Assembly (NCBI GenBank): GCA_013203465.1
Contig: JABMNR010000188.1
Span: 1 to 50,195, forward strand
DNA length: 50,195 bases
Source of the DNA: Alphaproteobacteria bacterium
Lineage (GTDB): Bacteria; Pseudomonadota; Alphaproteobacteria; Thalassobaculales; Thalassobaculaceae
Direction of reading: 5' to 3'
This document shows, piece by piece, positions 5,510 through 25,255 of the stretch. A program made the position numbers and the translations under genes. Position 1 is the first letter of the stretch. Every line of letters starts with the position of its first letter. The notes beneath the pieces were generated by a model. That model saw only the letters and a program-made list of their open reading frames with translations, was not told the origin of the DNA and did no database searches.

Positions 5510-6766
5510 ATGGCTGCGAAATTTGACAATGCGATCGTGCGCTGGATCGATCACCGGCTGCCGATTTTCAGCTTCATGCACCACGAATTGCATGAGTATC
5601 CGACACCGAAGAACCTGAGTTACTGGTGGAATTTCGGCTCGCTCGCCGGCATCGCGCTGGTGATCATGATCGTCACCGGTATCACGCTCGCCATGCACTA
5701 CACGCCGCATGTCGATTACGCGTTCGACTCGGTTGAGCGGATCATGCGCGACGTGAATTACGGCTGGCTGATCCGCTACCTCCACACGAACGGCGGCAGC
5801 TTCTTCTTCATCGTCGTCTACATTCACATCTTCCGGGGCATGTACTACGGCTCGTATAAGGCGCCGCGTGAGCTTCTGTGGATGCTGGGCGTGGTCATCT
5901 TGCTGTTGATGATGGCGACCGCGTTCATGGGCTACGTGCTGCCCTGGGGCCAGATGAGCTTCTGGGGCGCCACGGTGATCACCAACCTGTTCTCGGCCAT
6001 CCCGGTGGTCGGCCAGTCGATCGTCACCTGGCTGTGGGGCGGCTTCTCGGTCGATAACGCGACCCTGAACCGGTTCTACTCACTGCATTATCTGCTGCCG
6101 TTCGTGATCGTCGGCGTCGTGATTCTGCACATGGTGGCGCTGCACCGCTTCGGCTCGAACAATCCGCTCGGCGTCGACGTGAAGAGCGCCAAGGACCAGA
6201 TTCCGTTCCATCCGTACTACACGATCAAGGATGCGTTCGGCCTTGGGGTGTTCCTGATCTTCTTCTCGGCCTTCGTGTTTTTCGCGCCGAATTATCTGGG
6301 TCACCCGGACAACTACATCCAGGCCAACCCGCTGGTCACGCCGGCCCACATCGTGCCGGAGTGGTACTTCCTGCCGTTCTACGCGGTCCTGCGGGCGGTG
6401 CCGGACAAGCTCGGCGGCGTGCTGCTGATGTTCGGCTCGATCGCCGTTCTATTCATCCTGCCGTGGCTTGACCGCTCTCCGGTGCGCAGCGGCCAGTTCC
6501 GGCCGATCTTCAAGATCTTCTTCTGGATCATCGTGCTCGACTCGGTGCTGTTGACCTATCTCGGCGGCAAGCCGGCGGAGGGGGGCTACGTCATCGCGGC
6601 GCGTTTCGCGACCGCCTACTACTTCATGCACTTCCTCATCATCCTGCCGGCGCTGTCGATCTTCGAGACACCGAAACCGCTGCCGAAATCGATCAGCGAA
6701 CCGGTGATCGGCGGCGGTGGGGGATTTGCCGGGGCAACCGCCGCTCCGAAGGAGAACGTCCGATGA
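5510..6766 (+). CDS. petB: Cytochrome b subunit of the bc1 complex
   Basis: Membrane subunit that oxidises ubiquinol at Qo and reduces ubiquinone at Qi through two b hemes. At 418 residues it is the full-length fused form (not split into b6 and subunit IV), with about eight membrane helices. The heme-ligand helices are visible ([50 protein letters not shown]), as is the Qo-site [14 protein letters not shown] Gly-rich, probably cytoplasmic tail ends the protein. The stop overlaps petC by four bases (ATGA). Confidence 0.98.
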
Positions 6767-8571: not shown

Positions 8572-8584
8572 GGCGGCGCGGCGC

Positions 8585-9025
8585 GTGCGTGGTCCACCCG
8601 GCACTGGAGCGGGACCTGTTGGCACCGAGGGTCTCGGTCGGCTGGAGGGTTTGTACAACAAGGTCACGGCCGACCGTCCGGACGACGCGCGCTCGCTGAA
8701 CGTGAAATCGGTCATGGCGCTGGACAACGACCGGCCGGCCGAAGCCGCCGAGCTGATTGGCCGCGCGTTGGCGCTGGAGCCGGCCGAACGCGCCTACCTG
8801 TTCCACATGGCCAAGGTGTGCGCCCGCGCCGGCTGGTGGTCGGAGGCGGCCACCGCGCTGCGCCGGGCGATCTACGTCGCGCCCCGCGACGCTGAAAGCT
8901 GGTACGGGCTTGGCATCGCCTTCGAACAGCTCGGCATGAGCGACGACGCCGTCACCTGCTGGCGGCAATGCGTGGCGCTGGAGCCGGGCCACATCGGCGC
9001 GACGGCGGCGTTTGGGCGGCTATGA
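8585..9025 (+). CDS. TPR-repeat protein of unknown function
   Basis: The residues after about position 22 form three or so tetratricopeptide units: ARSLNVKSVMALDNDRPAEA, then AYLFHMAKVCARAGWWSEA and SWYGLGIAFEQLGMSDDA, each ending in ALEP- or VAP-type turns. TPRs mediate protein binding; nothing points to a partner. The start is uncertain: the GTG at 8585 is the first in-frame start after mtnP, and a TTG near 8651 follows GGAGGG closely. It begins 13 bases after mtnP and may be cotranscribed with it. Confidence 0.7.
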   Translation: MRGPPGTGAGPVGTEGLGRLEGLYNKVTADRPDDARSLNVKSVMALDNDRPAEAAELIGRALALEPAERAYLFHMAKVCARAGWWSEAATALRRAIYVAPRDAESWYGLGIAFEQLGMSDDAVTCWRQCVALEPGHIGATAAFGRL

Positions 9026-23726: not shown

Positions 23727-23792
23727 ATGCCGCATCTTTGGATCTTTTTGAGCGTGCTGATCCTCGGGCTGATGGTGAGCTGTATCCTGTGA
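23727..23792 (+). CDS. Putative 21-residue hydrophobic peptide (lipobox-like)
   Basis: The reading MPHLWIFLSVLILGLMVSC followed by two residues (Ile-Leu) is one hydrophobic helix with a lipobox-like MVSC, so lipidation and cleavage would leave only three residues. Its TGA overlaps the GTG start of the lipoprotein gene (GTGA at 23789-23792), the pattern of coupled translation. GGTGGAGG lies upstream but 13 bases from the ATG, longer than ideal. It may be a leader peptide that drives translation of the next gene. It is not a recognised family. Confidence 0.45.
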   Translation: MPHLWIFLSVLILGLMVSCIL

Positions 23793-24667
23793 GCCAGAGG
23801 ATTTCCCTGCCGCTCCGTCTCCGGCTGTCGATCGCGGTCGCGGCGCTGCCGTGGGCGGTCGCCGCCTGTGGGTCGGTGCCGCAGCCCTTCGCCAAGGACG
23901 CGCCGGTGTTGGCTCGCGCCTCGGAGCTGATCGCACCCGCCACCGAGGGGGTGTCGGTGCTGCCGGTCGAGGGCGTGGCCGATGCGACCGGCCGGCTGAT
24001 CGCGGCGCTGACCGCCGAGGCGTTGCAGGATCATGGGATCGCCGCCACCGACAAGGCGAGCAATCGGGCCAGCCTTTTCCTGGCGAGCGTTGGCGCCCGC
24101 CAGCCCGATGGCGCGCTCGCCATTACCTGGACCTTGGCTCGGCCGGATGGGGTGGTGCTTGGGGAACGGACCGATGCCATCGCGTCGGACGAGGCGTTGG
24201 CCGCATCACTTGCCTCGGTCGCCGATTGGATCATGCCGTATCGCGCCACGGCGGACAGCGAAGCGAGTGGCCGGCCGGCGATCGCGGTCTATCCCGTTTC
24301 CGGCGCGCCGGGTGATGGCAACGGCCTGCTGCGCCGGGCCATGGGACTGGCGCTCGGTCAAGGGCCGGCGGAGGTCACCGCCGACGTTGTTCCCGGCGGC
24401 TATGTGGTGCAGGCCGACGTGAGCCTGACCCGGCTGAAGGACGGCCGTGATCGCGTGGCGGTCTCCTGGGCGGTGATGGATTCCCGCGGGCGCGAGATCG
24501 GCACGGTCGACCAGGAAAATGTGGTGCCGGGCGGCAGTCTGGACCGCCGGTGGGGGGCGGTCGCGGCCCCGATCGCGGAGTCCGCGGTCGACGGCGTGCT
24601 GGCCTTGATCCGTCGCTCGGCGGCGGCGCGCGGTGAGCTTGGCCGAGGGCGCGCCGCGCGGCCGTGA
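23789..24667 (+). CDS. Putative lipoprotein of unknown function
   Basis: The 292-residue product starts MSQRISLPLRLRLSIAVAAL and has a lipobox VAAC with Cys27, so it should be lipidated and membrane-attached after export. The mature part has repeated patterns such as GVSVLPVEGVADATGRLIAAL and IAVYPVSGAPGDGNGLLRRAM, two similar beta-alpha units, suggesting two related halves. I do not recognise the family. The GTG start is chosen from the signal peptide and the GTGA overlap with the preceding small ORF; a longer frame from 23738 would spoil the signal peptide. Confidence 0.75.
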   Translation: MSQRISLPLRLRLSIAVAALPWAVAACGSVPQPFAKDAPVLARASELIAPATEGVSVLPVEGVADATGRLIAALTAEALQDHGIAATDKASNRASLFLASVGARQPDGALAITWTLARPDGVVLGERTDAIASDEALAASLASVADWIMPYRATADSEASGRPAIAVYPVSGAPGDGNGLLRRAMGLALGQGPAEVTADVVPGGYVVQADVSLTRLKDGRDRVAVSWAVMDSRGREIGTVDQENVVPGGSLDRRWGAVAAPIAESAVDGVLALIRRSAAARGELGRGRAARP

Positions 24668-24719
24668 GATCGATGTCAATAAAAATTGCTGCACTGCACA
24701 ATTTTTATTGACATCGATC
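24668..24719. repeat. 21-bp perfect inverted repeat (hairpin) after the lipoprotein gene
   Basis: The arms 24668-24688 and 24699-24719 are perfect reverse complements, beginning GATCGATGTCAATAAAAATT, with a 10-base loop CTGCACTGCA. It starts directly after the lipoprotein stop codon. As RNA it could end the upstream operon, although no T-run follows. As DNA each arm holds a TTGACA hexamer, one per strand, and the loop is a PhaR-like site. Confidence 0.85.
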
Positions 24720-24759
24720 CAACTCAAGACCATGTACCAGTCGTCATTTTGCGGTGCAG
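24689..24759 (+). promoter_or_regulatory. phaP promoter region with two PhaR-like operators
   Basis: CTGCACTGCA (24689-24698) and, on the other strand, CTGCACCGCA (24750-24759) both fit CTGC-N3-GCA, seven of eight fixed bases of the CTGC-N3-GCAG motif bound by the polyhydroxybutyrate regulator PhaR. Between them are TTGACA (24708-24713) and, after 17 bases, CATGTA (24731-24736) as a possible promoter. PhaR is known to repress phasin genes, which fits the gene downstream. No phaR gene is in the window. Confidence 0.6.
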
Positions 24760-24817
24760 CATTTTCCGGTTCATGCCGCCTAAGCAGCACCGCCCACCAA
24801 GACGACAGGAGAGACCG

Positions 24818-25255
24818 ATGACCGAGTTCAAGAATCCATTCACCGATTTCGACCCCAAGCAGTTCATGGGCGAGTTCAAGATTCCCAATTTCGACGCCGA
24901 CGCCATGATGGCCGCCAGCAAGAAGAACTTCGAGGCGTTGGCCCAGGCCAATCAGATCATGATCGAATCCATGCAGGCGGTCGCCCAGCGTCAGGCCCAG
25001 ATCATGCGCGAGGCTGCCGAACAGGCAAGCGCCGCGATCCAGGACATGACCAAGACCGGTGCGCCGGAGCAGAAGCTTGCCCAGCAGGCCGACATGGTGA
25101 AGTCGGCGATGGAGAAGGCGATGTCCAACGCCCGCGAGCTGGCCGAGTTGGCGACCAAGTCGAACCAGGAGGCGGTCGACGTGATCAACAAGCGTGTCAC
25201 CGAGAGCCTGGACGAGTTGCGTGAGGTCGCGGTTAAGGCCGGCGCGAAGAAGTAA
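24818..25255 (+). CDS. phaP: Phasin family protein (PHA granule-associated)
   Basis: Phasins coat polyhydroxyalkanoate granules and control their number and size. The 145-residue product is Ala-, Gln- and Met-rich and almost wholly helical. It has the phasin core FEALAQANQIMIESMQAVAQ with RQAQIMREAAEQASAAIQDM, and AELATKSNQEAVDVINKRV. The start ATG at 24818 has CAGGAGAG nine bases upstream. The N-terminus TEFKNPFTDFDPKQFMGEFK is typical of Rhodospirillales phasins. It appears to be a single-gene unit with its own promoter and a strong terminator. Confidence 0.95.
   Translation: MTEFKNPFTDFDPKQFMGEFKIPNFDADAMMAASKKNFEALAQANQIMIESMQAVAQRQAQIMREAAEQASAAIQDMTKTGAPEQKLAQQADMVKSAMEKAMSNARELAELATKSNQEAVDVINKRVTESLDELREVAVKAGAKK

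Follow-up and report, generated by a model that had tools for sequence, protein, structure and literature searches.

Predicted PhaR operators at the phaP promoter

Two-site PhaR control of phasin genes is described in kind from Ralstonia eutropha (Cupriavidus necator), where the available text of PMC12849132 reports two DNase I-footprinted sites at phaP1, with the palindrome YTKNTGCRNYGCANMAR: BS1 adjoins the -35 element on its upstream side, and BS2 lies around the start site. The authors regard this layout as typical of steric-hindrance repression and liken it to the lac operators. The Sinorhizobium meliloti PhaR (AniA) consensus is WNWDDNYGCRNYGCRNHHWNW, reported with gel shifts of mutated palindromes, and a PhaR motif also stands before ppa in that species, binding to which is not evaluated in the available text of the same study (PMC12542648). 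In Bradyrhizobium diazoefficiens, a footprinted pair, TGCRNYGCASMA, lies 6 bp either side of the -35 element of phaP1, and ppc is both PhaR-repressed and motif-bearing (PMC6201568).

The window, that is, the whole stretch of 50,195 nucleotides analysed here, carries a phaP gene preceded by the following features:

23738-24667, plus strand: upstream gene with no family assigned, an open reading frame of at most 309 aa whose stop codon adjoins the hairpin
24668-24688, plus strand: left arm of a perfect inverted repeat; this arm is probably derived, a copy of the other
24684-24704 (core 24690-24698), plus strand: predicted operator O1, 21-mer AATTGCTGCACTGCACAATTT, with 9/9 core positions and in agreement with the S. 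meliloti PhaR consensus at 21/21 positions
24689-24698, plus strand: hairpin loop CTGCACTGCA, 10 nt, holding the O1 core
24699-24719, plus strand: right arm of the inverted repeat, probably ancestral, bearing the -35 element
24708-24713, plus strand: -35 element TTGACA
24731-24736, plus strand: presumed -10 element CATGTA, a weak match
24744-24764 (core 24750-24758), minus strand: operator O2, core TGCACCGCA on the minus strand, matching 9/9 core positions and 21/21 consensus positions in the better orientation
24807-24813, plus strand: ribosome-binding site AGGAGAG, read off the sequence
24818-25255, plus strand: phaP, a phasin of 145 aa (TIGR01841, 61.6 bits against a cut-off of 30.2; PF09361, 70.4 bits against a cut-off of 24.9)

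The locus is very probably a PhaR-repressed phaP promoter set between two operators, at which a long hairpin, most likely template-switch-derived and probably neutral, forms a separate feature. O1 and O2 lie 60 bp apart from centre to centre, with TTGACA beginning 14 bp past the O1 centre and 46 bp short of the O2 centre, and a scan of the whole window for core pairs around TTGAC returned exactly one, at phaP. The flanking arrangement of the Ralstonia type is found here, relative to a presumed transcription start, and the two-site layouts are alike, whereas in Ralstonia a third site is predicted inside the gene; the available text of PMC12849132 makes no mention of the word 'hairpin'. Both operators match the S. 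meliloti consensus at 21/21 positions, but the copies at S. meliloti phaP1 and phaP2 bracket only the -35 element, with starts 18 or 28 bp apart, whereas those of the window bracket the whole promoter at 60 bp (PMC12542648). Against the B. diazoefficiens motif, O1 (TGCACTGCACAA) fits and O2 (TGCACCGCAAAA) has one mismatch (PMC6201568).

A first-pass annotation of this DNA had described a perfect 21-bp inverted repeat with a 10-base loop, an inverted near-copy of that loop 61 bases on (CTGCACCGCA, minus strand, 24750-24759) and a TTGACA in the right arm, all of which are confirmed. It had also given CTGC-N3-GCAG-like sites as those that PhaR binds. O1 reads CTGC-ACT-GCAC and O2 reads CTGC-ACC-GCAA, neither being exactly CTGC-N3-GCAG, and the published YGCRNYGCR with A/T-rich arms fits both better.

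The presumed -10 element aligns with CATCTA, CATTTA and GATATA of relatives at a spacing of 17. The best match to TATAAT at spacings of 16-19 from the -35 element is 3/6, and a consensus-promoter scan made no call at the phaP promoter. The upstream gene gave no match in NCBIfam and Pfam searches at the thresholds used, and its residues ~44-291 share 45-63% identity with the gene at the equivalent place in 7 of the 8 relatives' loci searched.

In the proposed mechanism, the promoter would be sandwiched between O1, just upstream of the -35 element, and O2, past the -10 element near the transcription start. By analogy with the PhaR literature, PhaR on both sites would block RNA polymerase when polymer is absent, possibly by bridging, and would be drawn to the granule surface once PHA granules form, so that phaP is switched on. 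The accepted view of PhaR is left unchanged.

Recurrence of the layout and putative PhaR targets

The layout was scored at phasin loci of relatives by a sandwich rule, which asks for an O1 with a perfect core, for TTGAC on its right side and for another site (core at least 8/9) a further 56-77 bp on. The sandwich is present at 23 of 30 phasin loci including the window (22 of the 29 others), and within the window's own family at 20 of 21, L026 being the sole miss. A promoter-flanking pair of the Ralstonia phaP1 type recurs, in other words, at most phasin loci examined. L028 has O1 only, and L024, L025, L026, L027, L029 and L030 have no pair within 300 bp, the contig of L026 beginning there. In a 24-locus table transferred by hand from the 30-locus scan, each of the 24 loci with O1 has TTGAC beginning 13-17 bp to the right of the O1 centre, and O2 lies 42-62 bp beyond the TTGAC start in the 23 loci that have O2. 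A stricter-rule scan, from which 11 loci duplicating other loci were excluded, lost L016, where the O2 core is 8/9. Outside the 30-locus set, L031 has two good sites 48 bp apart, a spacing beyond the sandwich rule, and L056-L058, which are weaker phasin matches, have a strong pair each, with one weaker extra pair each in L057 and L058. A phasin search of additional genome contigs gave one locus, from Skermanella.

PhaR is encoded in this genome on contig C63 (TIGR01848, 146.5 bits against a cut-off of 109.45; PF07879 and PF05233 above their cut-offs). Its neighbours are a thiolase above the general TIGR01930 cut-off and below the NCBI PhaA equivalog cut-off, an acetoacetyl-CoA reductase above the TIGR01829 cut-off and below the NCBI PhaB equivalog cut-off, and a PhaC-like alpha/beta hydrolase below the PhaC cut-offs; the names phaA and phaB are assigned from context. 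The first-pass annotation had proposed that PhaR controls phaP through the two operators, and a PhaR homologue in the genome and conservation of the sites at relatives' phasin genes had been set beforehand as tests; with the homologue present and the operator sites kept upstream of phasin genes at 22 of 29 other loci, the proposal stands as a prediction from sequence.

A motif model was built from 33 of 47 listed operator sites, all from other genomes and mostly from the same family; the two window sites were omitted on purpose, and 12 further sites were removed manually, most of them near-duplicates or O2 copies of lower quality, with both L021 sites included in the 12. A scan of the 4.48-Mb genome, with scores given to the best 150 out of 1,930 first-look candidates, returned 11 rows. 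Among these best 150 candidates, the site before the phaA-like thiolase ranks first (E 0.005) and phaP O1 second (E 0.034), followed by a site between a MaoC-like hydratase and a divergent biotin-ligase-like gene, a site before a second phasin, and, in joint fifth place, phaP O2 (E 0.125) and a site before a fatty-acid desaturase. The next rows, from the same best 150 of 1,930, are ppa (inorganic pyrophosphatase) and then ppc (PEP carboxylase), the ppc site falling within the longest reading frame and ~7 bases before a likelier ATG; of the remaining three, two repeat the hydratase and phasin sites on the opposite strand and one is without a clear target. The E-values are weak individually, and the weight rests on the gene list.

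Control of phaP by PhaR through the operator pair is strongly supported as a prediction, because phaR is present, both sites fit the consensus and the motif model ranks both high. The result is a clear map of predicted PhaR operators for this genome. The sites at ppa, ppc, the MaoC-like hydratase and the desaturase suggest a possible wider PhaR regulon, in which the hydratase might, at a guess, be a PhaJ candidate.

Two exact copies of the 12-mer TGCTGCACTGCA exist in the genome, one at the phaP site and the other upstream of the phaA-like gene, at a distance of 3.1 kb from the PhaR domain; its one-mismatch matches (15+16) are no commoner than those of a reversed control (14+13). The phaA-like promoter region (L055, G000:C63, ~5547-5640, minus strand) has the genome's best-scoring PhaR site 13 bases before the ATG. 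A weaker TGC palindrome lies farther from the gene on the same side, and a promoter between these two TGC sites could not be placed. The second phasin (L083 1440-1580, G000:C104) has the O1/TTGAC/O2 layout at 59 bp from centre to centre and lacks the long hairpin. The remaining PhaR-like sites lie at L086 1501-1520 (ppa), L087 1501-1516 (ppc), L082 1501-1519 (MaoC-like hydratase) and L085 1501-1518 (desaturase). Upstream of phaR itself lies a perfect 7+1+7 palindrome, TTGGTGCAGCACCAA (L055 ~8575-8589), with a spacing unlike that of the operators; it was set aside as an autoregulatory candidate, being found in 1 of the 21 phaR loci scanned and absent from the other 20, and may be such a site or due to chance.

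Structure and probable origin of the long inverted repeat

The two 21-nt arms of the hairpin (24668-24688 and 24699-24719) are 100% complementary (21/21). Under a single-base model of the window's composition, ~2e-6 perfect repeats with arms of at least 21 and a loop of 0-20 are expected by chance per 50 kb, and the runner-up short-loop perfect repeat within the window has arms of 11 bp.

The first-pass annotation had read the hairpin as an upstream terminator merged with the operator and promoter. Such a terminator would end transcription of the upstream gene and insulate phaP, with the operator as its loop; this reading is unlikely. The hairpin does begin right after the upstream stop codon, the operator is flanked by an A-run and a U-run, and the RNA fold of 24660-24735 is strong (-33.8 kcal/mol, z -8.5 against shuffles), but the U-run is part of the stem, whereas in an intrinsic terminator it would follow a G+C-rich stem. 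In a simple model with a 9-nt hybrid, the free structure at the time when the U-run is in the RNA-DNA hybrid is weak (~-6.7 kcal/mol) and is not the operator stem, which starts to form with the polymerase at ~24714, and the full stem can form by ~24728, past the U-run; the stem left of the U-run alone reaches -2.4 to -5.7 kcal/mol. L003 and L004, moreover, have the operator and lack a U-run at that place. A terminator scan made no call, which counts for little, as no bulge was allowed, 0.8 calls were expected by chance and the phaP promoter likewise went uncalled. With the long dyad in none of the other loci examined, the U-run in the stem and the fold forming late, the merged terminator is unsupported.

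The hairpin is a feature separate from the operator pair and, among the genomes examined, is seen here only. Perfect arms at O1 extend for 21 bp in the window, against 8 and 6 bp in two close relatives, L004 and L003 respectively. Counting the window copy, the 16-mer TTGCTGCACTGCACAA occurs in 18 of the 385 genomes sampled from the class, and the arms at its 17 other copies, for which the status as PhaR sites is established for part at most, are 3-6 bp long. Eight of these 17 loci share the operator layout (L090, L091, L092, L094, L095, L096, L101 and L102); L101 is the L007 promoter again. Beyond TTG/CAA, the dyad extends for 18 bp in the window, 5 bp in L004, 3 bp in L003 and 0-3 bp at the 17 other 16-mers. 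A reading of the hairpin as the operator palindrome in a longer, conserved form was rejected on this last count and since the hairpin axis (24693.5) is half a base off that of O1 (24694); the 21-bp dyad is absent from every other locus examined.

All 24 loci with O1 have TTGAC on its right side, and in 1 of 24, the window alone, it is mirrored on the left; therefore the left arm was probably copied by a template switch and the right arm is ancestral, the relatives compared being from other genera only. Template-switch (quasipalindrome) mutation is described as a single event that writes a reverse-complement copy and yields a perfect stem (PMC8794818, PMC7202029). The stem of the window is likewise perfect, while its origin is deduced here from relatives of other genera and would have been nucleated at a repressor operator. 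In such an event, the short O1 dyad, TTG...CAA, would prime a template switch during replication, and the spacer left of O1 would be rewritten as the reverse complement of the right flank, the -35 element included. The copy places a mirrored TTGACA at 24674-24679 in the left arm, as the first-pass annotation had noted. By eye, nothing -10-like follows it on the minus strand, where it is succeeded by TCGATCTCACGGCCGCGCGGCGC, and a bidirectional promoter was rejected.

Because O1, the -35 element and the distance between them are as in relatives, the hairpin is probably neutral for phaP control, although the perfect arms could be kept by selection. The hairpin is a natural example of a perfect palindrome built around an operator with the promoter unmoved. 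It is decidedly improbable that the dyad is functional, hiding O1 and the -35 element by extrusion and so giving phaP an input from DNA topology, or that PhaR operators are recurrent nucleation points for template switching. If true, operator-nucleated template switching, with arms of 8 bp in L004 and 21 bp here, would give promoters a way to acquire mirrored parts.

A mobile or repeated hairpin element was considered and rejected: a second copy was not found in this genome or in 60 relatives, with the best 13 candidates searched in each. The 191-bp stretch around the hairpin matches itself alone in its own genome (13 of 38 first-look candidates scored) and has no match at E <= 0.001 in the 60 relatives (best 13 candidates per genome).

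Regulator identity, possible DNA extrusion and assembly

It is very unlikely that the operators serve some other regulator whose TGC palindrome is similar, PhaR being incidental. Such a regulator would account for G035 (97% complete) and G023 (81%), which have the sandwich and in which a PhaR search gave no match; in G035, the phasin with both operators is at L005. Across the order, however, PhaR is present in 21 of 36 genomes and a phasin in 22 of 36, and the two agree in 33 (20 with both and 13 with neither), the exceptions being G023 and G035, with a phasin and without PhaR, and G022, with PhaR and without a phasin. The consensus, too, derives from sites tested as PhaR sites by gel shift and footprint, and the predicted sites adjoin the phaA-like gene, both phasins, ppa and ppc, the last two of which carry PhaR motifs in other species. 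Neither a phasin nor PhaR is present in G011 and G020, two 1.5-Mb genomes placed in genus g12, whose other members in the sample are 4.7-5.6 Mb.

A supercoiling-sensitive cruciform, in which the extruded dyad would put O1 in the loop and the -35 element in the stem and make PhaR binding and initiation depend on topology, is extremely unlikely. The dyad contains both elements, its perfect arms are A/T-rich with a 10-nt loop, and the single-strand DNA fold of 24668-24719 is stable (-22.3 kcal/mol, z -10.9 against shuffles), but this one-strand energy leaves out the cost of melting the duplex, and none of the other loci examined has the long dyad. That the dyad is an assembly or sequencing artefact of this draft genome of 238 contigs is hardly credible, as it lies mid-contig, the order of the upstream gene and phaP is kept in 7 of 8 relatives' loci, and the 191-bp stretch matches itself alone among the 13 of 38 candidates scored.

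Long perfect repeats are uncommon, yet they are known in other loci. Across 250 kb of other, partly overlapping loci, seven perfect repeats with arms of 14-29 bp were found, six of them directly 3' of a phasin gene, where a terminator would sit. In relatives' loci, a long perfect inverted repeat is present at L034 940-1017 (29-bp arms), and those at L006 1356-1394 (18-bp arms) and L012 1943-1976 (17-bp arms) lie just 3' of the phasin gene and are terminator-like.
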